From Siderastrea siderea (Eukaryota > Cnidaria > Anthozoa > Scleractinia > Rhizangiidae): DNA of 64,000 nt. Under the pieces are notes generated by a model. It saw nothing but the letters and a program-made list of their open reading frames with translations. It ran no database searches and was not told the origin of the DNA. The position numbers and the translations under genes were made by a program. Within the stretch, counting starts at the first letter, position 1, and every line of letters begins with the position of its first letter. The stretch covers positions 4,183,552 to 4,247,551 of the forward strand of contig OZ034966.1 of the NCBI GenBank assembly GCA_964030785.1. Reading direction: 5' to 3'. Below, one piece after another: positions 391 through 63,858 of the stretch.

Positions 391-1959
391 CAACAAGTAG
401 GCTGATTACCAAAGTATTTGCTGCAAGAACAAGTATCTTGAATAAGACTGCATCTGTGTACGGGTCTGTCGTAGCTGGTAAGTTCTCTGCCGGAATCCTA
501 CTCACTGCTCCAACACCCAAGTTGAAAACTGTAACAGCAAGAGACACTGACATTAATCTGTTCTCAACACCGTCTTGTATTGGTTTCATCCAAGAGAAAA
601 GCACTCCATACATCCCAGCGATGACCCATGCCAAACCAATGTAGGACCTGCTCTCTTGCCCCACAAGAATTAGACCTGATGTAAGGATTACTTTACGAGA
701 CATCTCAACCAGTTCCCAATACCACGAGTGGTTTTTGTAGTTTTCGAAAAGAAAACGCAACCCCGAGATCATTTCCAAACCCGAGCTTGAATTCTGAGAA
801 ACCTTGGCATCTTCTGTGGCTATTTCTCGTCGTTGTTTCCAAAGGGCGATGAAAGCCGCAACAGGAAGGGAAAAGATGTACGCAGTGGAAATATATGCTC
901 CAATAAGCAACTGTTTGTACTTAATGCCTTGGCACTGTACACTGTAATCTGCTTTCAGGTACTTGTTGCACATCTCCCTTTGTTCATCAAGATCTCGGCA
1001 AAGTTTCCGGCAGGCCAGCGGCAGGACATTGGCTGTCTTCGAGCATGTGCTTAGGTATGTCACATACAAGAAGAAAAACAAATTCCTGTAGACAAACTCT
1101 TTCGTCTGGGAGACTTTTGTTGATTTCTCCTCCTTGTTGAGGCCCTGATTAGTTAAGATTATCAGTTTCCGCACCCCGTAAACGATGCCAAAAAAGGCAA
1201 TGAAAGTTGCATTTAATACCATCATTGCAAACAAGCTTTGAAAGGCATCCACGTGCAATGCTGGAACAAGGCACTCAACTGGAGCGATCTGAAGGATGTC
1301 AAGTTGAAGTAGCTGAGAATATTTGGCAACAACCTGAAGAGAATCTGGCCATTTTATGAACGAAAATGCTTGCAATAAACCATAAGTGACTTGATAAAAG
1401 CCAATGACGATCTTAAGTTTGGATAAAAACATGTCTATCATAGTCAGTCCTGCGGTCTTCTTCATATTTTTCTTACCCGTCCACACCAAGACCGCAATGA
1501 GTATTATTAAGACGACAACAATGATTGACAATTGTCCCACAATCCACTCCTTTGAAGGACATTTTTTGCATATTTGCAATTGCTTATAGTATCTAGAACT
1601 GCAAACTGCACAGAGTGGACCTTCGTACCCATTCGCACATATGGAATCTAAACCACCCTTGCAAGACTGTTCCACTGGACATTTATAAGGTGTTGGTATT
1701 TGGTATGGGTATTGTACACTGGAAGGATCTAATGCTGGTAAAGACGCCAACAGATTTTCGATAAAATCCCTGTAGCGATGTTTTCTTGTCTCATCCCGCC
1801 ATTGCCACCAATAACCAGATTTTAAAGTAGCATACTCCTCTTTGCATTCCAGTCCACTTAGTTGTTCACATTTGTGACATTCCTCGAACATATGAACCCG
1901 ATAAAATCCTTCTAAGCATTTACAAGCTCGGTAGCCAGCAAAGAAATCCGTATCTGTTC
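391..1959 (-). CDS. Copy A large exon: Cys-rich juxtamembrane region and polytopic membrane domain
   Basis: 1569 nt without a stop, against 1566 nt in copy B (one extra residue in the CEQLSG segment). Starts with a TDFFAGYRACKC stretch, then a Cys-rich EGF-like motif (CANGYEGPLCAVC ... CKKCP), followed directly by the first membrane span. About 8-9 hydrophobic segments follow, with a lumenal-looking loop holding several cysteines (CSKTANVLPLACRKLCRDL). Very similar to copy B along its whole length. I cannot assign it to a named transporter or GPCR family from sequence alone. Confidence 0.9.
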
Positions 1960-10900: not shown

Positions 10901-13900
10901 CGGTAGCTGACCACCCTTCAAACATTGCAATGAAGTAAAGAAATTATTTACATATCTTTGTCCGCCATTCAGCATTCATATCATAGTTAGCGATACTATA
11001 AATTCGTTATCTTTCTGATTCAGTTTTTCCCAAATACAAAGCTTTTGAGGGTTTTAAGTCACGAATTTATGACGATTTAGCATCCAAAAAATACGTATTC
11101 AATATCACTCGACACAGAAAAAAATACTCATTCAAACCAATTCATTTTTCACTTGCATTAATTCTCTACATACAGATAGACGAGGCCTGGTACTGACGTA
11201 AACACTTTTTCAGGTAGCAATCGGATGGCGTTTGAAGACAAATACCTTTAAACAAAGGCTCCGTTACTGATGAGGTGAAAGTATTATTTGTTTTTTATTT
11301 CTTGTTTATGATAGGAAAGATATAGTTAAATCCTCCTCGCAAGGAAACTGAAAGGATGGACTCATTTGATCGCAAAAGTCACTTACAAGTTGTGTAGGCC
11401 TGCCATATTGGCGAACACATCTTCAGGTAAAAGTGTTATTCTGTTTGAAGCCAAATTACTGTAAAAAGGGAAATGGTACAGAAAACTAGACGGAACTGAC
11501 TAGAATTTTTAAAGGGGCTTTCGCCTCATCTACGATATACATGACACATAATAAAGTTATAATATTAATGTCAGTTTATCATAACGCCTTAACGTATCAT
11601 GTGTATATCTTACACAAACTTAATCTGATTGCTGTATTTTTTTGTAGCGGCATTAATGCGCCGGAAAATCTTTCCGCAACAAATAAATAAATTCAAGCGT
11701 TTTCAGCAAAGTCCTGGATGCGATACTTTTCAATTTAAGGTATTTTAAAGTTTTCAGGTGCTTCAGTTCATAAATATCCGTTTTGCAACAGTAAAGGATT
11801 AAGATTACAGAAGTAACAAATTACCGAAAGAAAATATTAAAAGTATAGGGAAATGACAAATCACACTTTCAATTAGGTTCAGAAAATGGGTAAAAGTAGA
11901 GGGATTGAAAAGTAAAAGCTATTGAAGGAGATATCATCAACAAAGGGCAGGAAAACTGCACACATTCATGGATACACGAATACGGCCAATAAGTCTTGAC
12001 TTCAAGACCACATCGTTCACTTACAGATACCATAGTTTTCTTAGACTGGAAAACGCTCCTTGAGGTATAACCGAAATGTTGTTTAAAGAAAAATCCCTAT
12101 AAAAAGTTTCCTCCAGTAAGCAAATGATAAAAATAAGTTCGTAATGTTTATATTTAAGTACAAGTCATGTTCAGTTTCAAAATATCACATATAGAATAAA
12201 TCCCGTAACTCAGCCTTATGTGGAAAAAGTGCCAAAAGTGACGCCGCACACGGCTGGCCGCTTGATTGTGCTCTGGTCTTTGCCGAACTAGGAGTGCTAC
12301 TATTCCTCACTGGATGAAATGTTAGCCCATCGCAAGTTGTACTCAACAATTGTAGGTTTTCGCAAGTAAACGGTTTGCTCGCACCTCTATAGTTCCCTAG
12401 TTTTGCCCAATTTTCTCATGGTCTACCTGTCTATGGGGCATCTGAACCTGATCTTAATATTATCCGGAACGTTTTGGATAGATGCCATAAGCGTCGTTTT
12501 ATTTCTTATCCTATTTCTATAAAGGACCTCTTAAATAAGCAGGACTGTAAAATTTTTAAGAAAGTAATCTCGGTAGATAATTAATCACCCGCTCGGTCCA
12601 TACATCCTTTCAAAAAAGGACTGTTTATGCAATCTCCGCAAAAGGCAACATGATTATCTACATACACATGGGTGGAAAGAGACAATAGTATTGGCATCCT
12701 AAGCCTTGACGTAGAATGTCCAACGCCTACCTACCAGACCATCATGACCTTTGCATGATAAATGATAAAAGAACTCGTTGTTAAGAAACCTTACATCTTT
12801 TTAGTTGTCGTTGGAACACATTTCAAAGTATAGATGAATGAAGATAAATTCCTGCAGGCAATAGTGTTTTCAAAACCCTTTGGCCATTCGTGAAAGCAAT
12901 TAGGTCCGCAATCTAAAACACGAAAAAGTAAAAGTGAAGCAAACATAAACATTATAAAATCAAAACTGGCAGGAAGCTAGCTAGTTGGCTTTTCACAAAG
13001 CATGGCGGGGATGAAATCAAGAATACGGAAGACAAGTGCAGCTAAAAACGACACTACAAAGTGAAGTCCCGGATAGGAGGAACTCGCCCTAACCGGATGA
13101 TGGGAAAACTGCAACTAAATTTGTCACATTCAGCATAAATCTGCACCAACAACAAAAACAACATTTATATTTTCAGAACATGAAGTACATATATATTTAT
13201 TTTCTTTGGAGATAAATTTCATTTTCTTTGGCAACTATTTTTTTAAACCAGCCAATAGGCAATGAAAATCGGGATTAAAACAATCTACGTTTCCATATGT
13301 CAACTTCAAATTAAATTAAATGAAATTAATCATAAAACGTCTCACCGTTAAAAACGACTGAGAACTCTCTCACGTCAGATCCATACGAGCTATTGGCAAT
13401 GCAAGTGTAGTTCCCTTCCTCCTCTACCACAATGCTTGCAGTGTTTGTTGCATTGACTAGCACTGTAGAGTTCCACATCAATGCTATGTGTATAGGGGGA
13501 GTTCCAGAAACTAAACATGACAAGCGATATCCTGGTAACACTTGCACCACAGCAGCTTGCAAAATTATCACAGGCGGAGCTGATGAAAAGCAATTGGCAA
13601 TTAAAATCGGGATTAAAACACAATCTACGTTTCCATGTGTCAACATCCAGAAGAAATCACGATAGATAACTGTGTGCATCGATAGCTATGTGCCGCCGTT
13701 TAAGTCTGAATTTTTCATGTTGAATTCGTAGCTGCTCAGATACTCAGCTGCGAGGATTCCTTTCTTCCCATTGCATGATACAGGAGAAATATCTGATTTA
13801 GTAGCCGTACGAGTTACAACCAGATTAAGGAAGGTCGAGCTCCGTTTTACTCTACATGTACGAGCTAGGTTTGAAAGAGAAGAGCATAGTCAAAGGATAA

Positions 13901-16900: not shown

Positions 16901-17048
16901 ATTTAATTGTGGTTCCAGTAGTAGCCGTGTAGCAGTGGTGATTCCATGCTAACTAAACAACGAAATAAACTGTCCTCTTACCTTGTCCAGCAACGGTACC
17001 ATCATCTTCATTCCCCATTAACAGGAATAGAAGCAAGATTATTTTCAT
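391..17048 (-). CDS. Receptor copy A: CUB-Ig-LRR-Cys-rich polytopic membrane protein (3' end outside window)
   Basis: Spliced minus-strand gene. Exons in transcript order: 17048-16982, 16024-15868, 14381-14215, 13579-13346, 12912-12795, 12096-12025, 11458-11387, 11245-11174, 10275-10204, 8703-8632, 7200-7129, 6916-6845, 6013-5924, 5691-5620, 5286-5206, 3655-3444, 2680-2555, 1959-391. Together 3397 nt with no internal stop, about 1132 residues, ending in phase 1 at a GTAAGA donor; the tail exon must lie left of position 1. Order: signal peptide, CUB, Ig, LRR N-cap, 10 LRR-type exons, two GCC2/GCC3-type Cys modules, a Cys-rich EGF-like stretch and a multi-pass membrane domain. Most donors are GTAAG- or GTGAG-type. 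Exon phases match the paralogue at 20122-49877. Likely a cell-surface receptor by architecture; ligand and signalling are unknown. If the last intron is retained, translation stops at 359-361. Confidence 0.85.
2399..2520. repeat. Dispersed repeat, copy 1 (TATCAACTCAGTTGATAA family)
   Basis: Carries the ATTTATCAA-TTGAGTTGAT and TTTACATTATCAACTCAGTT motifs around a GAATTTCTTTACG.GGG core, shared with 15393-15660 and 29918-30190. Confidence 0.5.
2555..3655 (-). CDS. Copy A Cys-rich GCC2/GCC3-type exons
   Basis: Two exons, 3655-3444 (212 nt) and 2680-2555 (126 nt). They carry FLPCPLGTFSN...GCIKCPPG and CKLCPTGSFVPF...CKSCPLG, the C-P-x-G-x-[YF] ... C-x-x-C-P-G pattern of ephrin-receptor-like (GCC2_GCC3) modules. 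The first exon is 15 nt longer than in copy B (5-residue insertion in its N-terminal part). Confidence 0.85.
5206..12096 (-). CDS. Copy A LRR exon array (10 exons)
   Basis: Seven 72-nt exons (12096-12025, 11458-11387, 11245-11174, 10275-10204, 8703-8632, 7200-7129, 6916-6845), then 90 nt (6013-5924), 72 nt (5691-5620) and 81 nt (5286-5206), all phase 2 to 2. Each 72-nt exon codes a 24-residue repeat of the pattern LSSNAI.FLPE.VFA.L..L..L. The later ones are more divergent and form the C-terminal part of the solenoid. The 81-nt exon ends at a weaker donor, GTGATG, whose TGA would be an in-frame stop if unspliced. One repeat fewer than copy B. Confidence 0.85.
6025..6055. repeat. (AAAT)n microsatellite
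   Basis: About seven AAAT units directly upstream, in transcript order, of the 90-nt LRR exon of copy A. Confidence 0.9.
7923..8078. repeat. Hairpin element (inverted repeat)
   Basis: Left AAACAATTATTGGACGA...AAAATATCGTGATTTGTCAG pairs with right CTGACAAATCACGATATTTT...TTCAATAATTGTTTT. Arms about 70 bp with a short GCCGAAGGCAGAGGC centre. No coding content. Confidence 0.7.
9474..9632. repeat. Hairpin element (inverted repeat)
   Basis: GCGGTTTGAGGGTGTTTTTA (9482-9501) is inverted at 9605-9624 (TAAAAACACCCTCAAACCGC); the arms extend to CTTGCA / TGCAAG. It sits in a G/C-richer island (9400-9660) unlike its surroundings. Confidence 0.65.
10781..10826. repeat. (AGA)n microsatellite
   Basis: About 15 units of AGA/GAA in a copy A intron. 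Confidence 0.95.
12396..12650 (+). pseudogene. LINE reverse-transcriptase C-terminal remnant
   Basis: The plus-strand frame reads HGLPVYGASEPDLNIIRN then LDRCHKRRFISYPISIKDLL and, after a frame change, HPLGPYILSKK. This is the typical extreme C-terminus of non-LTR retrotransposon RT ORFs (LP.YG ... RC.KRR ... LL). Broken by a stop (VDN then TAA) and a shift. Lies in a copy A intron, opposite to the gene. Confidence 0.65.
12795..12912 (-). CDS. Copy A exon 5: LRR N-terminal cap
   Basis: 118 nt, phase 1 to phase 2. Four cysteines in DCGPNC, ACRNLSSF and LKCVPTTT correspond to an LRRNT-like cap before the repeats. Copy B has the same length and cysteines. Confidence 0.82.
13346..13579 (-). CDS. 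Copy A exon 4: immunoglobulin domain
   Basis: 234 nt, phase 1 to phase 1, the classic symmetric Ig exon. Core motif: L.C.VSGTPP (first Cys) and EEGNYTCIANSSYG (Y-x-C with second Cys), an I-set or C2-like Ig fold. Several N-x-S/T sites. The same length and splice phase are kept in copy B. Confidence 0.88.
14215..14381 (-). CDS. Copy A exon 3: C-terminal half of CUB domain
   Basis: 167 nt, identical in length to copy B. Encodes YDYLMISNDN, FCGQRTGE and LISFHSDAIVQRKGF, the conserved CUB core (YD-L-I ... CG ... L-F-SD ... GF). Flanked by a TCTACAG acceptor and a GTGAGT donor. Confidence 0.88.
14857..15120 (+). pseudogene. LINE reverse-transcriptase remnant with internal deletion
   Basis: The frame reads EDLHEPPGMDEVKRAIEQMD then IGK.FGKRGVI (cf. 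PPT..EV..AI..M..GKA.G.DGI in RTE/CR1-like RTs). After a stop and a gap comes KQGFVLVPASFYPYFTQV with LDG.LFDL (cf. KQGC.L.P.LF). The catalytic middle is missing, so it is inactive. It lies in the intron splitting the copy A CUB domain. Confidence 0.6.
15393..15660. repeat. Dispersed repeat, copy 2 (TATCAACTCAGTTGATAA family)
   Basis: Contains ACCGTAGAGAAATTGAAAGC and TTTCGATCGTTAGCCC, near-identical to the copy at 29918-30190. Resembles a repeat common in cnidarian genomes, possibly the tail of a Penelope-like element (inference). Confidence 0.5.
15868..16024 (-). CDS. Copy A exon 2: N-terminal half of CUB domain
   Basis: 157 nt, the same length as the copy B exon. Encodes the CUB hallmark GCGSVVGN...SPGYPTGYPNNMDC.YW.I/VP, with the two spaced cysteines and the GYP.NYPNN-type turn. 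CUB is an extracellular beta-sandwich for protein or glycan binding. Ends in a Cys-Arg codon split across the next junction. Confidence 0.88.
16982..17048 (-). CDS. Copy A exon 1: start codon and signal peptide
   Basis: Starts MKIILLLFLLMGNED: a Lys, then a hydrophobic Leu/Ile run, typical of a secretory signal peptide. The start is chosen because the ACTGCATCATG context and the MKII start are shared with copy B. The exon ends in phase 1 before a GTAAG donor. An AATAAA-like A/T-rich motif lies a short way upstream; I cannot tell whether it works as a TATA box. Confidence 0.8.
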
Positions 17049-20000: not shown

Positions 20001-20121
20001 GGGCTTATTTAGGTGAACTATGCAGTATTATCCTTTTCTCTCATGCTATCTGCAGGACTATGATGGTCAGACAATAACTGTGCATCCTTTGAGTGATTTA
20101 TACTGAAAATATTACTGCATC
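17049..20121. promoter_or_regulatory. Shared intergenic region between divergent receptor genes
   Basis: About 3.07 kb between the two start codons, so promoters for both genes should lie here. I recognise no coding gene. The stretch near 18930-19430 has two facing C/G-rich motifs (at about 18960 and 19390) and several short stop-free frames, and looks like an old dispersed repeat. The last few bases before each ATG (ACTGCATC) are shared by both copies, which suggests the duplicated segment reached into the 5' leader. Confidence 0.4.
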
Positions 20122-20191
20122 ATGAAAATAATCTCAGTCCTCCTTTTAGTTTTAATGTGGAATGTAAAGGACAGCGCTGTTGCTGTACAAG
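20122..20191 (+). CDS. Copy B exon 1: signal peptide
   Basis: Starts MKIISVLLLVLMWNVKDSA, a hydrophobic leader, ending in phase 1 before a GTAAGC donor. Three nt longer than in copy A. This ATG is chosen for conservation with copy A and because the CUB exon follows in frame. Confidence 0.8.
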
Positions 20192-20950
20192 GTAAGCAAA
20201 TGCACTCAGCAACAATTGCTTAGCATTAGTGTAACCATTTCTATGTGCCGTTTAAACTAATGGGAAAAGTTCAAATTCAATATTCCGGGAAGGAGAATTG
20301 CTTTGGCCAGAATGAGCAAAAAGGAAAATGTATGGAGTGAGTTTAATTCTGGGTTTGGCTGCAATAAAATTGTGGTGGTGGTGTTGTCGAAAACAAGAGA
20401 ATTGTGGTGGTGGTGAATACAATAGAATCGTGGTGGTGAAAGCAATAGAATTGTGATGTTGGTGTTGGTGGTGGTGGCGGTAAAAACAATACAATTGTCA
20501 GGTGGTGGATCAATAGAATTCTGATGATGGTGGTGGTGGCGAAAACTATAGGATTGTGGTCGTGCCGGTGCGGGTGGTGGTCTTGGAACAATAGAATTAT
20601 GGTGGAGGTGGCGATGGTGTAGGAAGAGGAGGAAGAGGAGAAGAAGGAGGAGGAGGAGGAAGGAAATAAGACTTTGATTGTGTAGGAAGAATTATCATTA
20701 ATTTAGCTGCCGAGAATCAATGAAGCTGAAAAAGCTTATCTATAATTGAATAGTAATGCCTGTCTGCAGTGGATATTGAATGCAGAAAGAATGGACGCTT
20801 GTGTAATTACGTCACGTGAATGACAATAGATTATGACGTCATTGAAGATCCCGGGAATACGCTAACGAGATTCCACAGCATTTTATTCATGAGATACAGA
20901 CAATAGCCTATGACGCCATCGATGTTGAAGTATTCCACCACAAAAAATAA

Positions 20951-20985
<35 letters not shown>

Positions 20986-32900: not shown

Positions 32901-35900
32901 CGAAAAGTTACCGGAACTTTCGAGAAACGGGTCCCACTATATTTTGTCGGCCCTCGGGCTTCCACTCAGCTTTGACTCAGGCCTGCGTTGGTCAAAACGC
33001 GACATACAACCACAACTCGCCTCTCTGTGCGTGAATAAGGCAATCAAACGGGCATATGGTTAAAGCTTTTAGGGAACATTAAGTCCCAGCCTGTATAGGT
33101 CTTTCGTGGGGTCACGGAGACAACTCAGAGGGAGAATAATTAATACAGTCCCTTGAAGTAATAACAAGCATAACAGGGTGTAAGTCACATTTGCTGGAAG
33201 ACTTTCACATCCTTTTTATTCTGCAGATTTTTAACCGCTAATCGACTGGAAAATGTTCCATATCGGGCATTCTTTTATCTGGATCCGCAGATTTATGGAT
33301 CTCGCGACCAGACCATGTGCGTATGAAGCAATTAAGGAAAGGAGGTCAATAAGACTGACCATATTGAGCTCTGTAGAATATTCCGTGTAGCTAGCTCTAT
33401 AGTTACTCTTATTTTCTTGAAAGATGAAGCAACTTTAAAGTAGATTTATATTGCATCCATGTCTAGAACTGAATCAGTTACTCATTTATTATTTTTTAAC
33501 CACATATTTGATGAGATACAGAGGGGGCAATATCCGGGAAAAGGCTGAGTCCTATTGAAGTCCAAACAATCCCCATTTCTGTGAAAGATGAATTTAACTC
33601 AGGAGGAAAACTGGTGTTGTTTCGAAGAACCTCTGACGTTAAGGGCGTTGCTATGGCTTCTTCCTCTAAAAAAAAATACGACGCCGAGTCTGTTAAAAAA
33701 AAACGCTATATTACACGTTGGATAAGCACATAAGTAATCTCCGTAGTAATTTGTGTTTTTTTTACGTATGGATTTAAGGAGTTGTTTGGTTGTAATCATC
33801 TAATCATATTTGTTGTTTCTTTGTTAAGAATGTTATCAGATAACCCAATAACGGCTATCGAACCGAAGGCATTTCGACTTGGCCGCTTCAATTTCAGAAT
33901 GTAAGTTTCCATCTCTAACATGCCGATGACTCATTCTGGTCGCTTGATTTTCACTTTAGTTTCGAAGTACCAGATGTCACAAATTTCAATCTTAGTTAGT
34001 TGGTCAGTTTCAGAGGTTTTCCACTGCTTTGGGTAAACGAGATACGCGGCAGGGGTCAGTTACTATTTTGTTGTTATGGTTGAGATTGTCGCTGTGTAGG
34101 TATGAGTTGTTGAAGTGGGGCTGTTTGTCCCGCCCTGGTCCCGAGTGTACCAGAATTATGATCAAGAGCCCTCCATCAAGTAAATGCTTGAAGAATAAAC
34201 CATGATAATTTTTGGCTATTTTTGGCAAAGTCACAAGAACCTACACTTTCAAGTTGCAATTTATTTCCACCTCAGCCATCAGTATCTAATGACACAATAC
34301 TTCAGTGCATTACTGATAGTAACTAGTAACGGTGAACAAAAACAAACCACTATCTATAAAAGTTCATTGATGCAAATGTGTCTTTTCTTTATAGCGTTAC
34401 TAAAAATAGCTGACCTTCAAGGAGTCAAAAGGAAGCTTTCGAATGCCTATTTTCAAATGTGCAACAGAACCTTTTTACAAAACAAACTTGCCTAGTTCAA
34501 TGTATCCATATTGAACACTGTGGGGAAGGGAATATTAGTGAATATTTTGAGGAATAGGACAATATTTTAGGACACCATTTTGTACACGTTAACGCTTAAT
34601 TCAATAATTCTTAACTTCTTTCTCGTAGACATTTGCTGAGGACGAAACTGAAAACACTGAGCCTTGAGTCTTTCTACGGGATACTTGGTTTTGATGCAAC
34701 ACTGTGATTATCATTATCGTTATCATTATCTTTATCATTATTATTATTATTATTATAGCAACATAGTAAATCAATTTTAAGCGATTTATAGTCGTCTTTT
34801 TGTAACAGCTAAGGTCATCAGTCAGGTGATCTCCATCCCACCTCTAACTGGCTATGCGTAGTTTTTGCAACTTCCTCTCACTTCAGTAATCGTGTGACAA
34901 TCGCCCACATTTTCCACGTTACTGAGTACTCTGACGGCAAATTTGTCAAAGTTACTGTCAACTCCCCTCAAACCATCCATATCTTCTCTGTTTTGAAACT
35001 TCAGGCAACCTAAATACCACAGTCTCTCTCTCTCCCCTTATCGAATCTCATGGCGTACTCTGGTCATGGGTTTTGCAGGACTCGAAACAGCTTTAACGGA
35101 ACAAAACTGAATACAAGGCTGGCACTATGGCAAAGGGCTGATTTATTTAAGGCCAATATTTCGGCTAACAAAATTACTCTTCCTCAGGGCCATAGCTGTA
35201 CAGAGCTATACATTTTTTCCTTCTGTATAGCTCTGGCCCTGAGGAAGGCTAATTTTGTTAGCCGAAATATTGTTTTGTTCAATTACACTTCCAGTGACGT
35301 CTGGCTCCAGCATCTCTACACCAGAGATCCGGCAAAAGCGAACCAGTGCGGTTCATTTACACGTCGTGTGGACCTCTGCATTCAAAGGTTTAATTGTGGG
35401 GGTGCTTCACTGATTGTAAGGAGGGGAATTTATACTTACAGAAATTAACATAGAGTAAAAATAGTATCCTGGACAAAACAGTTCAGGATAAGTTAAACGA
35501 TTTCAAATTTTAAATGATTTCCCTTAATTCTATAAAACGGCAACATAGCAGGAAAGAAAGTTGTACACATGGAAATTTCGTGAAATATAAGAGTGTTTAC
35601 CTTAAGACCAGAAATAGGGCGGGAAAACACGCGCAGCCACATCGGTTCTCGCGCCAAACATTCTGTTTTGTCCAGGGTACTAAAGTAAAAGCAAGCTGAT
35701 TTTACACCATTCTAAACCTTTCCGTTTTTAGGGTGCTACGGAGTAGAACAGTTGGAACGCTGAAATATTTTTCCAAGATCTCCAGCCAAAACTGCCTAAT
35801 ATATCTGTCAGTACATTTAGGATTAAATCAGATATGACATAGCAAATACACTGTTCTTTGGCTCGGGACCTATGTTCAATTATATATTGGAATCAACATT

Positions 35901-38900: not shown

Positions 38901-41900
38901 AGGAAAGAAGACTCGAGATACGAGATTGTTGAAGTTTAAGACTAAATATTTAAATATCAGGAGAGCTGCCACCTTTCACGAGGAAAAGTTTGAGATACCT
39001 CGAAGTAGCCAGTTAGTGTGAAGCTAAGTCCTAGGGGAAAGGGTTCTAAGGAAGATGGCTTAGAGCTCTTCATCGGTGATAAACTGTATGCGTTAAATCT
39101 CCAAAACAGGTCGGAGTCACTGGAAAGTGAACGGAAATCATCGAATGCTACTTGACACTCTTTAACTGATAGCTGAGAAATGACTCAAATTTTGAATGAT
39201 AGCTGAGAAATGGCCTAAATTTTAACTGATAACTGAGAATCCAGCACCCCCATGCAGACCCTCTACTTGACAATGACTGTTTTGCGGTAAGATCTCTTCC
39301 TAATTAAATATTTTTTTGGAATGTGAAACTAAATAAAATATTATAGCTATAAATAAAATATTAGCTATTATTTATTGCATTCATTTCCTTACTTCTATTT
39401 GTAAACTAACAGAAATCCTGCATGTGTTCTTTCTCCTTAAGGAGTCCTTTAAGTTCTGATGACGAAGCTATTGAAGTATCTCCCAAAGGGGATGCCCTTA
39501 TTTCTGCCCTCCTTGCCTCAGGATTCAGGCGAATACCTGACAATAGCACAGGGGATTATAGATTTCTACCATGCCCGCGAGGAACATTTGCCAACTCATC
39601 CTCAAAAGGAGCTGAAGGATGTATTAAATGCCCTCCAGGTGCCTTAAGTCTGCTTTACACGACAAGAATTAACTTAAAGTCAAATTTAAGTTAAGTTGGA
39701 GGTCACAGCATCAGTTGGCAAATACGTTTTATAAAATAACTAAGATACTACGCGCACTCTGATTGGCTGAGAGGTGTATTTGCATGAGAGTATGTAAACA
39801 GTTGTTACGTCACGATCTTTAAGAAGACTAACTTTTTTATAAAAGCAATAGAAAACTTTTTCCTCTGTTTGTATAGCCTGATATAATCCCTCGAAGGGTT
39901 TGGGAGAATTCCAGAAAGTTATGCAAACCCTTGACTTCGTATCGGGTTTGCATAACTTTCTCGAATTCTTTCAACACCTCTCGTGTTTATATCAGGCTAT
40001 GCAAACACGGAAAAAGTTTTCTAATGCTTAAAGGCTCACTGTTTGAGAGGAGTTTGCATGAGATCTTCTCTCTTTTCTTTTAAACGTTTGCAGCAATTTC
40101 ACATGGGCGTGTGGTAGTTTGTCAAGCATATAATGTTCACTTTCAATTGATCAAACTTCACCTGATTTTTACAAAAATGACACTAAAGAAAAACATTAAA
40201 CCGCTTTTTAGTTTGCAATATTATTAAGTCTACAAAAATTCTGGAATTTACCCTCTCGCTTTTAGACTGGCCATATTAAAGCGGCCACGAGTGGCCATGG
40301 TCACTCCACAATTTGTGACGTCATCACTTCGACAAAGGACGTTTTCGACAATCAAAATAATAACCGTCCCACGGACGAGATCTAGTGGTAGTTGCACAGG
40401 ACCCCCAGGGTCACGAGAAGAGCACTTTAGTGTCAAAATATACGGATTTGTATGGAACGTGATCGCTAGTTTAGTCAGGAAACTAAAAAGGACAATAACT
40501 AGCCGGTTAAGTGTACATATCAGATCATATACTGTCTTCATGTTTCTAGACCGTCTGAAAGCCTTTCAACTGCATTTTAGCCAGTTTTTAGGTTCCGAAA
40601 CCGTTAGCCTTCCATTAGCACGCTCAACAAGCGTATCTCTTGAATAGAAATCGCCAATGGACAGGAGACGCAAAAGGTGGATTGAATGTTCCAACACAGA
40701 ATTCCACTTACAGTCACGTCAGCAAAATCAAACACTGCACCATACAAGATTATTACTGATTGTTAGTTACAAAACGTTTCTCAATTATTTTGGTTGATTT
40801 TCCAGTTCCGGTCCTCGGGGACTGGGGCAGAGTGTTAAGAGCCAGTGTCTGTAAATATCGAAAACCCGGCGCCAGTTGTGAAATTTTCAATTTCTTCATA
40901 TTTTGCCTAAATAAACCCTTTAGTGAGTTATTTTCGAAAATACAATTAAAAGTTCCTAAAGCGCTTTAGTTTTTTCAAAATCGAGGCAAGTCTGAAAATC
41001 GCCATTTTGCCTTCCCGCCGCCATCAAAAAAAGGGTAAAATGGTGCATTTTCTTTTCGCTCGTACAGCTAAACGCGGTAATGTTTACCGATGTACTTTTA
41101 GCAAATTATAACACCATTCCTACTCTTTCCAAAACTGTAGTTTATTTGGGAAAAGCTTTTAAAGTTTATATCTTTCTAGCTGTTTTATCTACCCCGCTCT
41201 AAGCGCTTCAGCGGATAAGCAAATTTTAGCTAATTTCTAAACCATAGAAAGCCCACTGGTACATTGAATTTCAAGCCGAAACTACGATGGTCTTTAAGCT
41301 TATACTTCATATTATGCTGTGTGAAAATTTCTTCCGCGGCCCGACAAAAGTGTCCCGTTGAGAGACGGAAACGATGAGTCAATTTTGGCAACGCGACCAA
41401 TTTGTACTACAAACAAACGTCACTATAAATAAACCCAACATCAATCAAAAATCAGCTCAGAAAACCTTCTACAGTTCAATGTCAGACAGCATACACATTG
41501 TAACTTAAAATACTTTTTATATTGATGAAAAAACATCCTACCTTTGGGTATTCGTCGTAAAATAGATGCTAAAAGAAGAAGCTTTGATTCTAGCTTTCGT
41601 TATCCGACACCGAATAAATTACATCTCAACCCAGCTCAACCACAGGTCGAAAAGTCAATGCAATCATCTGTTCGTCACACAAGGGTCGTATTTGAGTATT
41701 CCCTCCTTGTACTGCAAAATAACATGTTTTATAGCAAGGAAATTAACTTATTAAATTGAAAAGTTAACATTCCTGGTACTTTAAGCGTTTAAAAAAAACA
41801 TCTGTTTCCACTCGCTTACATTTGCGTGACAAGAATTCGCTTGCTGCTAAAGCGGCAAACTGTATCGAAAAGATAAAATGCAGTTTTCAATAGATTAAAA

Positions 41901-44900: not shown

Positions 44901-47900
44901 CTAGGCAAGAAACACATTCCTATCATTTTACCAGAATACTAACAGTCAAGTTGATCATCCTTCAACCACCTTGGTAAGTTTAACCATGTTAGACTTTGTT
45001 GTGTTTTCTCAGAACAAGGGTATTTCAGTTGGACAGACCGCCTGGAAATTAATTTCAAATGACTGGCTTTCACTAGTCTGTCACTGTTTTATTTTTAGGA
45101 CTTTAAGTCCTCCTCGCTGCCAGTAACTAGTCAACGCAAATTCTGCAATATATTCCCTACGATGAGCACTTTTAATCTATTGAAAACTGCATTTTATCTT
45201 TTCGATACAGTTTGCCGCTTTAGCAGCAAGCGAATTCTTGTCACGCAAATGTAAGCGAGTGGAAACGAATGTTTTTTTTAAAAACGCTTAAAGCACCAGG
45301 AATGTTAACTTTTTAAGAAAATAAGTTAATTTCCTTGCTATAAAACATGTTATTTTGCAGTACAAGGAGGGAAATACTCAAATACGACCCTTGTGTGACG
45401 AACAGATGATTGCATTGACTTTTCGACCTGTGGTTGAGATGTAATTTATCCGGTGTCGGATAACGAAAGCTAGAATCAAAGCTTCTTCTTTTAGCATCTA
45501 TTTTGCGACGAATACCCAAAGGTAAGATGTTTTTTCATCAAAATAAAAAGTATTTTAAGTTACAATGTGTATGATGTCTGATATTGAACTGTAGAAGGTT
45601 TTCTGAGCTGAGTTTTGATTGATGTTGGGTTTATTTATAGTGACGCTTGTTTGCAGTACAAATTGGTCGCGTTGCCAAAATTGACTCATCGTTTCCGTCT
45701 CTCAACGGGACACTTTTGTCGGGCCGCGGAAGAAATTTTCACACAGCATAATATGAAGTATAAGCTTAAAGACCATCGTAGTTTCGGCTTGAAATTCAAT
45801 GTACCAGTGGGCTTTCTATGGTTTAGAAATTAGCTAAAATTTGCTTATCCGCTGAAGCGCTTAGAGCGGGGTAGATAAAACAGCTAGAAAGATATAAACT
45901 TTAAAAGCTTTCCCCAAATAAACTACAGTTTTGGAAAGAGTAGGAATGGTGTTATGATTTGCTAAAAGTACATCGGTAAACATTACCGCGTTTAGCTGTA
46001 CGAACGAAAAGAAAATGCACCATTTTACCCTTTTTTTGATGGCGGCGGGAAGCCAAAATGGCGATTTTCAGACTTTCCTCGATTTTGAAAAAACTAAAGC
46101 GCTTTAGGAACTTTTAATTGTATTTTCGAAAATAACTCACTAAAGGGTTTATTTAGGCAAAATATGAAGAATTGAAAATTTCACAACTGGCGCCGGGTTT
46201 TCGATATTTACAGACACTGGCTCTTAAGTATTATGGTCTGTAACATGTGCTCGGCTAGTTTACAAGTCAGCAACAAAAGTGCTCTTGGATTCTCTTGTAA
46301 ATTTTCCCTATCACGAGCTAGCAAAGCATGTAAGTATTTCATTTTCTTTTCGTAGTTTTCTATTTCCTTTCGCTTTATTTATTGTCCTTTTTTCTTTCCC
46401 GTCTAACCAAATACAGATAATCTACAAATACAGTTCGATACATTCACACTGATGTAATAACGACCGGAAATCGACTGTTACGTTCTTATCGACTGCATTT
46501 GCCGTTACAATCAACACAAGTATAATCACGATATGCTCCTGACAAAACCTATTCTAAGAACACACCGCTGTTCGCTGTGATCTAACGCTATTTCTCTTTA
46601 ATTTACCGCAACATATTGAATACTACTGAGTGTGAAATCATTGCTAAACGACTCTATTTATCACTCTGAACAGCAGGATCCCCAACCATCCAAATTATCT
46701 AATACATGAGCGCAACGAAAGTGTCCTGGCATAGCCAATAATAATAATTACTATAACACTTTGCAGCACTTCGTGTGAATACACTGATCCTGTTCCCTGT
46801 TAATTAGGAGGTTTCTACTCGGATGAGGTCGGCCACGTGGGAACAAGTTGTAAACTTTGTCCAACTGGTTCATTTGTGCCATTTGATAAAGCACCAGGAG
46901 CCCAACCTTCAGACTGCAAGTCTTGTCCCCTAGGTAAATGAGTTTTTCTATCTAAGTATAAGTTTATTCGTACTACTATGCGATGAAACCAAATCGAAAA
47001 TGCTGCCATTTAGAAATTTAATCATTTCTGAATTTCCTTTTTAAAAAAGGAACAGAGACTGATTTCTTTGCTGGATACCGTGCTTGCAAATGCTTGGAAG
47101 GATTTTATCGGACTCACATGTTCGAAGAATGTCACAAGTGTGGACAAAGCGGACTGGAATGCAAAGAGGAGTATGCTACTTTAAAATCTGGTTATTGGTG
47201 GGAATGGAGGAATGAGACGAGAAAACATCGCTACAGGGATTTTATTAAAAATATGTTGGCGTCATTACCAGCATTAGATGCTTCCAGTGTACAATACCCA
47301 TACCAAATACCAACGCCTTATAAATGTCCAGTGGAACAGTCTTGCAAGGGTGGTTTAAATTCCCTGTGTGCGAATGGGTACGAAGGTCCACTCTGTGCAG
47401 TTTGCAGTTCTGGATACTACAAGCAATTGCAAATATGCAAAAAATGTCCTTCAAAGGAGTGGATTGTGGGACAATTGTCAATCATTGTTGTCGTCTTAAT
47501 AATAATCATTGCGGTCTTGGTGTGGACGGGTAAGAAAAATGTGAAGAAGACCACCGGACTGACTATGATAGACATGTTTTTATCCAAACTTAAGATCGTC
47601 ATTGGCTTTTATCAAGTCACTGATGGTTTATTGCAAGCATTTTCGTTCATAAAGTGGCCAGATTCTCTTCAGGTTGTTGCCAAATATTCTCAGCTACTTC
47701 AACTTGACATCCTTCAGATCGCTCCAGTTGAGTGCCTTGTCCCAGCCTTGCACGTGGATGCATTTCGAAGCTTGTTTGCGATGGCGGTATTAAATGCAGC
47801 TTTCATTGCCTTTTTCGGCATCGCTTACGGGGTGCGGAAACTGATAATCTTAACTAATCAGGGCCTCAACAAGGAGGAGAAATCAACAAAAGTCTCCCAG

Positions 47901-49877
47901 ACGAAAGAATTCGTCTACAGGAATTTGTTTTTCGTCTTGTATGTGACATACCTAAGCACATGCTCGAAGACAGCCAATGTCCTGCCGCTGGCCTGCCGGA
48001 AATTCTGCCGAGATCTTGATGAACAAAGGGAGATGTGCAACAAGTACCTGAAAGCAGATTACAGTGTACAGTGCCAAGGCATTAAGTACAAACAGTTGCT
48101 TATCGGGGCATATATTTCCACTGCGTATATCTTAGCCCTTCCTTTTGCCTCATTCATCGCCCTTTGGAAACGACGACAAGAATTAGCCACAAAAGATGCT
48201 AATGTTCCTCAGAATCCAAGCTCTGGTTTGGAAATGATCTCGGGGTTGAGTTTTCTTTTCGAAAACTATAAAAACCATTCGTGGTATTGGGAACTGGTTG
48301 AGATGTCTCGTAAAGTAATACTTACATCAGGTCTAATTCTTGTGGGGCAAGAGAGCAGGTCCTACATTGGTTTCGCATGGGTCATCGCTGGGATGTATGG
48401 AGTGCTCTTCTCTTGGATGAAACCAATACAAGACGGTGTTGAGAACAGATTAATGTCAGTGTCTCTTGCTGTTACAGTTTTCAACTTGGGTGTTGGAGCA
48501 GTGAGTAGAATTCCTGCAGAAAACTTACCGGCCACGAGAGACCCGTACACAGATGCAGTCTTATTTAGGATACTGATACTTGCAGCAAATACCTTGGTGA
48601 TTGCCTTGCTTGCTGGTAAGTTAACCTTTTTACTTACAAAGCTATGGGTTATCGGTATCTTCCAGTTCAAGTGAATGCCTTCTTCGAATGGACGAGAAAG
48701 AGTGGTGTGCCATGCCTTAAGAAAGCGTAAATCTTAACGGGAAGAAATCTTAAGCTGTTTAGAATTGCACGCTGTGAGGTTGTGGGTATGAAAAGCGCGG
48801 CATATTTGAAAGCTAGAACTATTTGTAAATTCTTTGAGGTAGTACAAAAAGACACACCTTGGGAGAACACTGAAGGTCTGAAAGAACCAAAACCGTTTGC
48901 TTTGAGGCCAGCATTAAGGGATAAACATTAGCTTGATTCGTCTTCACTTAAACAAAATAATCGTTAAACAGAATTGAATTGTTCAGCGCACTCAAGTTAA
49001 AGGCGTGAGGTAAGACTTAACACTAAGTGTGAAGTGTGGGCGAAGGGACCAGAGTGCAAAACTACATATTTAATACAAGTAGAAATAAAAGCTACAATAG
49101 TCAGAATATTGACCATTATAGGCAAAGGGACCACATATTAACTAATGGTAAGTACTAAAAGTTATAATAAATAAATCAGATCGAATATCCTATCAGAATA
49201 AGAGAATAGCATTTAATTTTAGAAAACTCAAATCAAGGTCACTTGTGGTCATGGGATGGTTTTTAGAAAGCTACTCTCGAAGAAGTCGAGTGAATTTTAC
49301 TAAAAAAAAAAGTGGTGGCTCTTTAAATCTGATTTAGAATCCGTTTGTTCTAAGCATTGCTCCAAAACACAAGTAAACTGAAAGATCAAATACTTCGGAA
49401 TTTTCCTTACTGTGCTCGAGCAGTTACGTAAGTCTACTGTCTCATTTACTTTCAGTTCAGTACGCATTGACGCTATATCACTACTTTAAGGAGTGGCGCA
49501 AAAATCCGCATTGGTCCATTTCGTGCTGCCTGTCTCTACTTCTTCCTCTCAACAATTTACAAGGAGAAATCAGTGGAGTGGTCGAAACGAACGTCCTCAA
49601 CAGTCAGCTACAAACTGGAGAAATAGAAATGCCCACAGTTTATGGTGCCATGAAAGATAGCGGGGAATTTGATGTCACTCCTGATAGTGGTGAACAAAAC
49701 GTTAACGAGGTGGAGGAGCGGGATAACAGAGGTAGCCAGTACGACAACACCGAATGTCATGTCTTGTACGACAACACAAAATGTCATCAAGGAACTCAGA
49801 CGGAGCTGTTTGCATTTTCAGTCCGTGTTGTGGTGGTACATAAGAAAAACGAGGTCAAACAGGATGAACATCTGTAA
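20122..49877 (+). CDS. Receptor copy B: CUB-Ig-LRR-Cys-rich polytopic membrane protein
   Basis: Complete spliced gene. Exons: 20122-20191, 21068-21224, 22431-22597, 23825-24058, 27916-28033, 28190-28261, 28742-28813, 29484-29555, 30381-30452, 30798-30869, 31491-31562, 32007-32078, 32507-32578, 33227-33316, 33829-33900, 34629-34703, 39442-39638, 46808-46933, 47050-48615, 49456-49877. The sum is 3870 nt: 1289 codons plus stop, in frame throughout. Approximate layout: residues 1-23 signal peptide, 24-131 CUB, 132-209 Ig, 210-249 LRR N-cap, 249-520 LRRs, 520-627 two GCC2/GCC3-type modules, 628-765 Cys-rich juxtamembrane part, about 766-1150 membrane domain, then a hydrophilic tail. Introns between LRR and Cys-rich exons carry kilobase-size mobile elements. 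Probably a surface receptor; its ligand is unknown. Confidence 0.87.
20361..20668. repeat. Degenerate GGT/GGA-rich satellite
   Basis: Imperfect units built on GTGGTGGTG and ACAATAGAATTGTGGTG, ending in an AGGAGGA-rich purine run. In copy B intron 1, 870 bp long. Confidence 0.8.
20950..20986. repeat. (AAAT)n microsatellite
   Basis: Nine tandem AAAT units in copy B intron 1. Confidence 0.9.
21068..21224 (+). CDS. Copy B exon 2: N-terminal half of CUB domain
   Basis: 157 nt between a TTGAGAG acceptor and a GTGAGT donor. Encodes GCGRVQGNELKSPGYPKGYP and NNMDCNYWIHIP, the standard first half of a CUB fold. The acceptor is set by the phase from exon 1 and by the first CUB cysteine. Confidence 0.88.
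21587..21764. repeat. Hairpin element (inverted repeat)
   Basis: AACAATAGAGTTCTTCTGTC inverted as a diverged GACAGAAGGACTCTATTGTT, and TGTGATAGGTT.CC.GAGGAAATTTGA inverted at 21698-21740. Total 178 bp, in the copy B intron dividing the CUB domain. Confidence 0.65.
22431..22597 (+). CDS. Copy B exon 3: C-terminal half of CUB domain
   Basis: 167 nt after a TTCTCTGCAG acceptor, ending at GTGAGT. Encodes YDYLMISNDNHQTFGTFCGQ and LLSFHSDVIVQRRGF. Its length equals that of the copy A exon. Confidence 0.88.
23825..24058 (+). CDS. Copy B exon 4: immunoglobulin domain
   Basis: 234 nt, phase 1-1, between a CATCAG acceptor and a GTGAGA donor. Ig pattern: LSCLTSGTPPIY and LKEGNYTCAATSKHG, with two core cysteines and Y-x-C. 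Same splice frame as copy A; the substitutions keep the core residues. Confidence 0.88.
25931..26850 (-). pseudogene. LINE remnant interrupted by a younger inverted-repeat element
   Basis: The minus frame has RLGNYNLRIENGRHSTPKLP followed by a C-x2-C-x8-H-x4-C zinc-knuckle-like stretch (ICQCCSSNEVKNEVHFLLSC), the usual C-terminus of many metazoan LINE ORF2 proteins. The upstream part (FLSLCPVGEKSIDITVRAVA) lies at 26729-26830, on the far side of the insertion 26138-26724; the frame rejoins at KLR/LGN once that insert is ignored. Confidence 0.6.
26138..26724. mobile_element. Short inverted-repeat DNA element inside the LINE remnant
   Basis: Ends CGTGTTCTATTGGGATCAAC and, inverted, the same sequence (GTTGATCCCAATAGAACACG). 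Flanked by a direct ACCTAAG duplication (26131-26137 and 26725-26731). 587 bp with no recognisable transposase; repeated GGTTG/CAACC motifs near both ends. A non-autonomous DNA transposon (MITE) with a 6-7 bp target duplication. Confidence 0.75.
27916..28033 (+). CDS. Copy B exon 5: LRR N-terminal cap
   Basis: 118 nt, phase 1 to 2. Cysteines in DCRANC, VCRNLTSF and FQCVPTYT align one for one with copy A, consistent with an LRRNT-like cap. The 3.9-kb intron before it holds a LINE remnant and other repeats. Confidence 0.82.
28190..34703 (+). CDS. Copy B LRR exon array (11 exons)
   Basis: Eight 72-nt exons (28190-28261, 28742-28813, 29484-29555, 30381-30452, 30798-30869, 31491-31562, 32007-32078, 32507-32578), then 33227-33316 (90 nt), 33829-33900 (72 nt) and 34629-34703 (75 nt), all phase 2-2. 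Repeat pattern: DLSSNRITFLPDAVFANL and similar, 24 residues each. Nearly all donors are GTAAGT; the last is GTGATT, whose TGA would stop translation if the intron were kept. Each phase-neutral exon can be gained or lost without a frame change. Confidence 0.87.
29918..30190. repeat. Dispersed repeat, copy 3 (TATCAACTCAGTTGATAA family)
   Basis: Longest copy, with ACCGTAGAGAAATTGAAAGC, GAGCGTTAGCCCTTCG and a terminal ATCAACTCAGTTGATAAAT. Within a copy B intron. Confidence 0.5.
32261..32406. repeat. (CATT)n microsatellite
   Basis: About 36 tandem CATT units with rare interruptions (one CTTT, a few CGTT). Located in a copy B LRR intron. Confidence 0.95.
32691..32934. repeat. Hairpin element (inverted repeat)
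   Basis: GGTTTCTCGAAAGTCCTGAT AACTTTTCGG(G/A)(T/C)CCGG is inverted at 32895-32931 (CCGGGTCCGAAAAGTTACCG ... CTTTCGAGAAACGGG). About 240 bp, in a copy B LRR intron. Confidence 0.65.
35154..35272. repeat. Short near-perfect palindrome
   Basis: AATATTTCGGCTAACAAAAT and CCTCAGGGCCATAGCT on the left are inverted at 35222-35272. The stop-free frame across it (35050-35448) is considered a by-product. Confidence 0.6.
36426..39263. mobile_element. 2.84-kb terminal-inverted-repeat element with 6-bp target duplication
   Basis: Left end GAGGGTCTGCATGGGG, right end CCCCATGCAGACCCTC, exact inverted repeats. Flanked by TACTTG on both sides (36420-36425 and 39264-39269). Inside each end sit 3-4 copies of an AACTGATAGCTGAGAA-like motif in the same orientation (36443-36545 and 39160-39238). 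No transposase recognised. A second inverted-repeat element (37690-38686) is nested within it. Inserted in the copy B intron between 34703 and 39442. Confidence 0.75.
37690..38686. mobile_element. Nested inverted-repeat element with G/C homopolymer ends
   Basis: Left TGCACCTACCAATTTAAAGC followed by CGGC and a G run. Right has a C run, then GCCGGCTTTAAATTGATAGG and TGCA. Arms about 70 bp, including a shared CAGGGCATGGGGTGGG stretch. About 1 kb, no coding capacity recognised. Confidence 0.65.
39442..39638 (+). CDS. Copy B first Cys-rich GCC2/GCC3-type exon
   Basis: 197 nt. Encodes ALLASGFRRIPDNSTGDYRF and CPRGTFANSSSKGAEGC, ending in CPPG, the GCC2_GCC3 pattern. Starts with 1 nt completing a split codon after the last LRR exon and ends in phase 1. 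Confidence 0.87.
39842..40030. repeat. Hairpin element (inverted repeat)
   Basis: GAAAACTTTTTCC inverted as GGAAAAAGTTTTC, TATAGCCTGATATAA as TTATATCAGGCTAT, and GAAAGTTATGCAAACCC as GGGTTTGCATAACTTTC. Total 189 bp, just after the first Cys-rich exon of copy B. Confidence 0.7.
40835..46227. mobile_element. 5.4-kb fold-back element bounded by TTAA
   Basis: Two arms of about 2.3 kb (left 40839 to about 43093, right about 43939 to 46223) are inverted copies at high identity, seen throughout (e.g. 42240-42330 against 44745-44830, 41544-41760 against 45313-45519). Both outer ends are TTAA followed by GAGCCAGTGTCTGTAAATAT. A short extra homology (about 43630 against 43925) suggests the left inner arm carries about 540 bp of additional DNA. 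No transposase recognised. TTAA duplication is known for piggyBac, Kolobok and Sola3 superfamilies; I cannot choose among them. Inserted in the copy B intron before 46808. Confidence 0.8.
46808..46933 (+). CDS. Copy B second Cys-rich GCC2/GCC3-type exon
   Basis: 126 nt. GGFYSDEVGHVGTSCKLCPT then CKSCPLG, the same spacing as the copy A exon at 2555-2680. It lies just right of the 5.4-kb fold-back element in the preceding 7.2-kb intron. Confidence 0.88.
   Translation, partial: EVSTRMRSATWEQVVNFVQLVHLCHLIKHQEPNLQTASLVP
47050..48615 (+). CDS. Copy B large exon: Cys-rich juxtamembrane region and polytopic membrane domain
   Basis: 1566 nt open throughout. A TDFFAGYRACKCLEG start is followed by CANGYEGPLCAVC ... 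CKKCP just before the first span (about residues 766-787, IIVVVLIIIIAVLVW). Further hydrophobic stretches lie near residues 869-888, 915-937, 976-999, 1046-1060, 1065-1084, 1095-1115 and 1128-1149; 805-829 may be another. A loop near 932-970 has several cysteines and is probably extracellular. Ends in phase 1 at GTAAGT. Confidence 0.92.
49456..49877 (+). CDS. Copy B last exon: hydrophilic C-terminal tail with YDNT motifs
   Basis: Begins after TTTACTTTCAG in the required phase and runs to TAA at 49875-49877. It starts with YALTLYHYFKEWRKNPHW, then an acidic tail with QYDNTECHVLYDNTKCH, two YDNT motifs nine residues apart. The stop overlaps a perfect donor consensus (CT|GTAAGT at 49874). Splicing there to an acceptor before 49980 stays in frame and would replace the last two residues by about 24 others, ending at TAG 50050-50052. 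Which form is used cannot be told here. Confidence 0.75.
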
Positions 49878-63649: not shown

Positions 63650-63858
63650 ATCCCTGATCCCTCCAAAAACTGCTGATCCCGATCCCATGGTCTGTAATCC
63701 CCAATCCCAGGGCTGTGATCCCCGATCCCAGGGCTGTGATCCCCGATCCCAGGGCTGTGATCCCCGATCCCATGGTCTGTGATCCCCGATCTCAGGGCTG
63801 TGATCCTAGATCCCACCATTCTGATCCCCGATCCCACCCCTTTGATCCCTGATCCCAC
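63650..63858. repeat. Minisatellite, ~21-bp unit
   Basis: About ten tandem copies of GATCCCAGGGCTGTGATCCC-type units with small variations. Reading it on the minus strand gives the low-complexity GSGITAL frame, not a gene. Confidence 0.85.

Follow-up and report, generated by a model that had tools for sequence, protein, structure and literature searches.

A head-to-head pair of genes in the coral Siderastrea siderea for candidate contact receptors with CUB, Ig, and LRR domains above a predicted nine-span membrane unit

How corals recognize symbionts, microbes, and neighbors is an open question, and passages of papers on cnidarian receptors deal with Toll-like receptors, NLRs, lectins, and scavenger receptors. 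A stretch of 64,000 nucleotides from Siderastrea siderea (assembly GCA_964030785.1, contig OZ034966.1, positions 4,183,552 to 4,247,551; here called the window) holds two divergent genes, A and B, each predicted to encode a signal peptide, a CUB domain, an immunoglobulin (Ig) domain, a run of leucine-rich repeats (LRRs), Cys-rich modules, and a multi-pass membrane unit. What would proteins of this build do, and why are the two copies alike in one exon and far apart elsewhere? Our preferred answer, to which we give a probability of about 60%, is that both are genes for receptors at the cell surface that respond to contact or non-self, variable on the outside and constant in their membrane signaling unit. 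What appears to be new is a membrane unit like the one in cysteine repeat modular proteins (CRMPs), placed beneath an animal recognition ectodomain and present in a large repertoire.

Two exon series and one domain chain

Exon pairs were obtained by aligning one half of the window with the other, both as nucleotides and in translation, and splice sites and phases were fixed afterwards. The comparison reveals two real exon series, head to head:

17048-391, minus strand: gene A, 19 exons, 1,157 residues within the window; tail exon beyond the window
17049..20121, no strand: shared 5' region of the divergent pair, 3,073 bases separating the two start codons
20122-49877, plus strand: gene B, 21 exons, 1,314 residues

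Every internal junction of both genes is AG...GT, the phases are unbroken, and neither the 19 exons of A nor the 21 of B contain a stop or a frame break. Fifteen of the 19 A exons equal their B counterparts in length, the other four being off by 3, 6, 15, and 3 bases. An earlier, sequence-only reading of this DNA had claimed two opposite exon series with the same order and phases and near-identical lengths, which agrees with these models. It had also called both series complete, which is right for B, with its stop codon in exon 21, and for A goes as far as the 19 exons that precede the edge of the window; the protein of 1289 residues that it gave has to be replaced by the 1,314 of the gene B model. 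The two proteins align at 78% identity across 1,182 columns. Their LRR runs are built of phase-2 exons, mostly of 72 bases and with one repeat per exon. The main run has seven 72-base exons in A and eight in B, so that A has one fewer, and some middle repeats are without a clear one-to-one partner. The parts of gene B are as follows:

20122..20191, plus strand: exon 1, predicted signal peptide MKIISVLLLVLMWNVKDSAVAVQ, by hydropathy only
21068-21224 and 22431-22597, plus strand: exons 2-3, CUB (Pfam CUB 1.3e-22, residues 31-127)
23825..24058, plus strand: exon 4, Ig (Ig_2 E 0.002, 18.8 bits, cut-off 27; aligned in the predicted coral proteins P0007, P0008, P0013, and P0046)
27916..28033, plus strand: exon 5, Cys-containing cap, placed like an LRRNT ahead of the repeats; same length in A
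28190-28261, 28742-28813, 29484-29555, and 30381-30452, plus strand: exons 6-9, LRR, phase-2 entry
30798-30869, 31491-31562, 32007-32078, and 32507-32578, plus strand: exons 10-13, LRR, phase-2 entry
33227-33316, 33829-33900, 34629-34703, and 35732-35806, plus strand: exons 14-17, LRR, phase-2 entry
39442..39638, plus strand: exon 18, Cys-rich module 1 (Ephrin_rec_like 19.2 bits, under the cut-off of 23.1)
46808..46933, plus strand: exon 19, Cys-rich module 2 (91% nucleotide identity to A 2680-2555)
47050..48615, plus strand: exon 20, a single exon of 1,566 bases for the DUF7630 Cys module and the membrane unit, to which structure models give nine spans
49456..49877, plus strand: exon 21, C-terminal tail and stop; tail also near relatives' loci

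Gene A runs in the same order on the other strand:

16982..17048, minus strand: exon 1, predicted signal peptide, matching B exon 1
16024-15868 and 14381-14215, minus strand: exons 2-3, CUB, from the gene model
13346..13579, minus strand: exon 4, Ig, from the gene model
12795..12912, minus strand: exon 5, LRRNT-like cap, from the gene model
12096-12025, 11458-11387, 11245-11174, 10275-10204, 8703-8632, and 7200-7129, minus strand: exons 6-11, LRR, from the gene model
6916-6845, 6013-5924, 5691-5620, 5286-5206, and 4989-4915, minus strand: exons 12-16, LRR, from the gene model
3655-3444 and 2680-2555, minus strand: exons 17-18, Cys-rich modules, from the gene model
391..1959, minus strand: exon 19, 1,569 bases for the DUF7630 module plus the membrane unit, 94.0% nucleotide identity to B exon 20

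Exon 1 of B was picked from two candidates upstream of the CUB exon for its hydrophobic run, its phase-1 donor, and its matching A exon. The LRR run of B as a whole (exons 6-17, 28190..35806) matches Pfam LRR_8 at 3.1e-47, DUF7630 scores 28.7 bits (Pfam cut-off 27), and the gene B protein has no match to Pfam LRRNT and none listed for EGF. Are the domains those named by the sequence-only reading, namely CUB, Ig, LRR, and GCC2/GCC3? CUB and LRR are found by Pfam in B itself; Ig_2 and Ephrin_rec_like, which we take to be the Pfam family formerly called GCC2/GCC3, stay below their cut-offs in B and are clear in relatives. There, Ig passes its cut-off by a wide margin in P0075 (I-set 4.8e-13) and Ephrin_rec_like in P0083 (29.5 bits) and P0087 (24.6), and Ephrin_rec_like appears at E up to 0.1 in 29 of 37 family members. 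The Cys-rich part of the family profile is also matched by the mastigoneme protein Mst1 (PDB 8tx1, 5.4e-28, best at profile positions 181-272). As for the tail, it is conserved among relatives in a consensus, and the 1.5-kb flanks contain it at 23 of 30 loci (L009-L038, one of them B).

Could two genes have been misread as one? For this question B was divided into six parts (CUB, Ig, LRR, Cys, membrane, and tail), and each was sought in ten predicted proteins of corals. All six parts were matched at E < 0.001 in four proteins (P0007, P0008, P0013, and P0046), and all six with one weak in three more, the weak part being CUB in P0051 (E 0.37), Ig in P0075 (E 0.073), and LRR in P0047 (E 0.005). 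The same comparison gave no Ig match in P0031 and P0044 and no CUB match in P0068. Because the phases are unbroken and the whole chain recurs in predicted proteins of other corals, the claim that ectodomain and membrane exon are parts of one gene is supported, and the two-gene alternative is rejected; this holds at the level of sequence. The closest homologue (E 2.7e-291 across the whole query stretch) excludes chance.

Relatives from Oculina, Stylophora, Pocillopora, Acropora, Montipora, and Nematostella (among P0001-P0087) have a like membrane unit, at 32-71% identity, and several carry the full ectodomain chain, whereas for many of them none of the three domains CUB, Ig, and LRR is listed. 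Among 96 protein matches, an LRR family is listed in 38 and CUB in 11, one of the 11 being without most of the membrane part. Automatic names such as "Tolloid-like protein 2" and "Carboxypeptidase N subunit 2" mirror the ectodomain only. Upstream of the membrane exon in two paralogues from the S. siderea genome (of 84 match rows), the DNA shows LRR exons and then two Cys exons; the sequence covered there, 20 kb for one and 10 kb for the other, revealed neither CUB nor Ig exons.

The membrane unit and its kin

What kind of membrane protein is this? When modeled by itself with AlphaFold2, the membrane part has nine helices that are each at least 19 residues long (predicted local distance difference test [pLDDT] score 86.6, predicted template modeling [pTM] score 0.83), and the whole exon with the same long helices plus shorter ones (pLDDT 80.8, pTM 0.80). 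The membrane domain of about 8-9 spans proposed earlier stands as a prediction. The N-terminus would lie outside and the tail inside, an orientation in which all five loop Cys between spans fall outside in the model. Loop charges are not decisive, because the model helices run into the loops. The unit has polar residues that are invariant or nearly so across corals and protist-like relatives.

The sequence-only reading had proposed comparing this part with G-protein-coupled receptors (GPCRs) and transient receptor potential (TRP) channels. A seven-span GPCR is rejected by the nine predicted helices and the lack of a 7tm Pfam match in B; counting for a GPCR are a Frizzled match in 1 of 37 relatives (E 1.3e-4) and the frequency of GPCR chains in the VIA list of the whole-exon model. 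The TRP comparison gave a mixed answer: Pfam TRP (PF06011), presumably a fungal Flc/Pkd2-like family, is matched by 8 of 37 members, all below the cut-off (best 25.9 bits against 28.5, over part of the profile only), and has no match in the window's own membrane exon. Solved structures yielded no match at E <= 0.001 for either model, and the VIA alignments lie within the range of common helical arrangements (best Z 5.9, with the membrane-only model). Among predicted viral structures, two Megaviridae environmental entries in BFVD, A0A5J6VI06 and A0A5J6VHI1, stand out at probability 1.00 (E 1.7e-3 and 2.5e-3). With TM-scores to the query of 0.36 and 0.35, their fold seems to agree in part with the one predicted for the coral unit, and one of them is named a TRP channel.

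Sequence profiles reach further. Matches at 100% probability that span the full length of the membrane unit were obtained with three protist-like sequences, P0202-P0204 (E 1.4e-39), and with a metagenomic set of nine, the P0092 set (E 2e-84). By these profile matches, the membrane unit is one of a wider eukaryotic kind. That kind is probably the CRMPs, with which we compare it by description and by NCBI names only: five Oculina members (P0003, P0011, P0015, P0027, and P0035) are named "cysteine repeat modular protein A-like." Proteins from Toxoplasma, Plasmodium, and Tetrahymena were not among the matches listed in the protein searches.

How close is the resemblance? Passages of one paper describe the apicomplexan CRMP core as two EGF-like modules followed by nine spans, and some CRMPs as carrying Ephrin-receptor-like, C-type lectin, kringle, or beta-helix domains (PMC9815656). 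Passages of another place the N-terminus outside and the C-terminus inside, predict five spans for the Tetrahymena CRMPs, and report that CRMPs are needed for Toxoplasma rhoptry discharge and Tetrahymena exocytosis (PMC9670195). Both papers propose CRMPs as contact sensors for exocytosis (PMC9670195, PMC9815656). The coral proteins likewise have Cys-rich modules right before the membrane domain (exons 18-20 of B), and the nine spans predicted for them equal those of the apicomplexan proteins. They differ in bearing CUB, Ig, and LRR ectodomains and in occurring in tens of copies, and from the Tetrahymena CRMPs in having nine predicted spans rather than five. The P0092 proteins share a homologous Cys module and membrane unit with them and have long arrays of Ephrin_rec_like (GCC2-type) modules in place of CUB-Ig-LRR.

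Such arrays, with a membrane unit of like kind, are found in nearly all of P0092 and 92 further metagenomic proteins. One member of this set, P0165, is labeled "viral metagenome" in UniRef; relatives of the set were not found in two viral-contig scans, and its origin may be a giant virus or a protist. Eukaryotic relatives are listed with CAP-Gly (P0088, P0098, P0099, and P0101) or EF-hand domains (P0102-P0104), which suggests other outputs of the module.

Is the family known? A description of a nine-span CUB-Ig-LRR family was not found in the parts of the open-license full-text literature that a search brought up, and passages of coral and cnidarian receptor papers make no mention of it; GCC2 is mentioned once in a Hydra-Chlorella paper (PMC6019070). 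As far as that literature goes, the coral family is apparently undescribed, in line with the earlier claim of an uncharacterized family. The claim fits the CUB-Ig-LRR chain; the membrane unit has kin, by its profile matches and the CRMP names at NCBI.

A large family and an unevenly matched pair

The membrane exon has at least 84 match rows in the S. siderea genome, on 14 contigs, so the family is expanded, as the sequence-only reading had it. With 183 candidates seen and 83 scored, the number of rows sets a minimum for the size of the family; it includes some fragments. No internal stop occurs in 77 of the 84 rows (7 have stops), and 74 combine the lack of a stop with coverage of 485 or more of the 522 residues. 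Identity between A and B is 93%, and no other row exceeds 70%. A FastTree tree of 112 rows (the 30 best of the 84 genome rows and the 82 of P0001-P0088 with enough coverage) pairs A with B at full support, adjoining Oculina P0011. It shows separate expansions in this genome, Oculina, Acropora, and Montipora, with 31 of 106 inner branches weak, and places this genome's rows among those of Oculina, Stylophora, and Pocillopora, which we take to be robust corals. Tens of apparently intact genes, many with variable LRR and CUB-Ig domains over a constant nine-span unit, make a direct candidate for recognition.

Did A and B arise by recent inverted duplication of the whole locus, as had been claimed? 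Over 413 ectodomain codons (excluding LRR exons that had no clear counterpart, three in A and four in B), nonsynonymous divergence (dN) is 0.213 and synonymous divergence (dS) 0.637. Over the 521 codons of the membrane exon, dN is 0.036 and dS 0.160 (dN/dS 0.22). Synonymous changes number 49.5 in 343 sites of the membrane exon against 118 in 275 of the ectodomain (Fisher p 4e-15), and the introns align in fragments only. A recent duplication of the whole is rejected on these figures; only the membrane exon looks recent. Nor are its synonymous sites held still: against three other paralogues, the B exon has a dS of 1.22-1.46, which rejects synonymous constraint as the cause of the low membrane dS.

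The simplest reading, suggested by sequence comparison, is gene conversion, limited by homology, that may act on the membrane exon while the ectodomains diverge. In 50-codon windows along this exon, dS is 0.03-0.22 mid-exon and 0.43 and 0.75 at the ends. DNA identity between A and B stops about 5 bases past the exon at each border, the upstream intron being fully visible. The two Cys exons have a joint dS of 0.62, made up of 0.81 in exon 18 and 0.40 in exon 19 (9 changes, 29 sites). Among 11 other pairs serving as controls, the alignment runs past the exon on at least one side in all six whose main block is at least 90% identical (L024/L033, L024/L031, L035/L037, L019/L029, L025/L020, and L025/L026), and two others at 87-89% likewise align beyond it. 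Passages of PMC9815656 offer a parallel: adjoining CRMP copies in Theileria and Babesia have an identical central stretch, much as in the A/B pair.

Several points weigh against conversion under diversifying ectodomains. Besides the LRR exons left out of the count, the pooled contrast within the membrane exon (core dS 0.12, edges 0.52) uses a split chosen after seeing the windows. About 390 bases of the A flank below the exon are visible, which makes the non-alignment there weaker than upstream. Three diverged pairs (L011/L015, L030/L034, and L016/L032, 80-86%) have little aligned except the exon, so that a match confined to it does not by itself set A and B apart. The overall ectodomain dN/dS of 0.33 does not demonstrate positive selection; a single LRR exon reaches 1.39, on two synonymous changes only.

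Proposed role and its rivals

What might such a receptor do? The ectodomain would bind a ligand on another cell or a microbe, and the Cys-rich stalk would relay binding to the membrane unit, which would signal inside. Ectodomains diverge faster than the membrane unit between A and B and also between B and other corals' proteins: identity to P0008 is 49% in CUB, 41% in LRR, and 67% in the membrane unit, and to P0013, 49%, 37%, and 66%. Gene conversion could keep one signaling unit under changing binding domains, the pattern that a recognition repertoire would be expected to show. If the likeness to the CRMPs is a guide, the output might be contact-triggered secretion, which is speculative. A contact or non-self role is likely, as a prediction from the sequence. 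On the other side of the balance stand the tail of B, in which Pfam (full B protein) finds no known signaling domain, and the relatives listed without CUB, Ig, or LRR, since the recognition ectodomain, judged from these proteins, either is not universal or is missing from incomplete models. A long shot goes further: an ancient CRMP-type contact-sensing unit would have been fused to animal recognition domains, conversion would keep that unit uniform while the outside diversifies, and non-self contact (symbiont, microbe, or neighboring colony) would trigger secretion such as nematocyst or mucus discharge. If the kinship with CRMPs is true, what has been learned from ciliates and apicomplexans about contact-triggered secretion can be put to the test in animals.

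An LRR ectodomain is shared with Toll-like and LGR receptors, and the LRRs of LGRs are mostly encoded one repeat per exon. The coral proteins differ in their nine predicted spans and in the absence of TIR and 7TM matches in B. A Toll-like receptor is rejected, TIR being absent at E up to 1 from the full B protein in Pfam.

Another history of the pair would explain the same contrast. The ectodomains might have been swapped for those of older paralogues, with no conversion of the membrane exon, and a dS higher in the ectodomain (0.64) than in the membrane exon (0.16) is what such a swap would leave. It is nonetheless improbable: the intron upstream of the membrane exon is unaligned, dS already climbs inside the exon's ends, and exon 19 is intermediate while exon 18 matches the ectodomain in age. 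That both loci are decaying copies with little function is very improbable indeed; the stops in 7 of 84 genome rows and the unseen tail exon of A speak for decay, and the 19 and 21 exons free of stops and frame breaks, with a membrane-exon dN/dS of 0.22, speak against it.

Two further alternatives accept functional genes and assign them another task. The membrane unit might work as a TRP-type ion channel (PF06011), opened by the receptor on ligand or contact. Channel function is possible, and the partial PF06011 matches and the two viral structures point that way; this particular identity stays doubtful, with the best profile score under its cut-off, the window's exon unmatched, the viral matches at E 1.7e-3 and 2.5e-3, no solved structure at E <= 0.001, and a best VIA Z of 5.9 that is within chance for helical bundles. 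Alternatively, the proteins may serve adhesion or self-recognition (allorecognition), with a membrane unit that mainly anchors the variable ectodomain. CUB, Ig, and LRR domains are common in adhesion proteins, and fast ectodomain divergence and repertoire size fit this too; nine spans with invariant or nearly invariant polar residues go beyond an anchor's needs, and we regard the adhesion role as unlikely.

The remaining features of the window are these:

40835-43082 and 43973-46227, B intron 18-19: long inverted repeat, arms of about 2 kb 96.8% identical, inner stretch 80%; possibly a mobile element pair, the three open reading frames in or near it having no Pfam match
20001-22000: strong local GC skew (0.20)
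20257-20691, minus strand: Pro-rich frame inside B intron 1
63670-63858: short tandem repeats, 82-85% alike
59916-60350, plus strand: innexin match, weak at 20.8 bits against a cut-off of 25 (E 2.4e-4); it may mark one exon of a gap-junction gene that lies downstream of B
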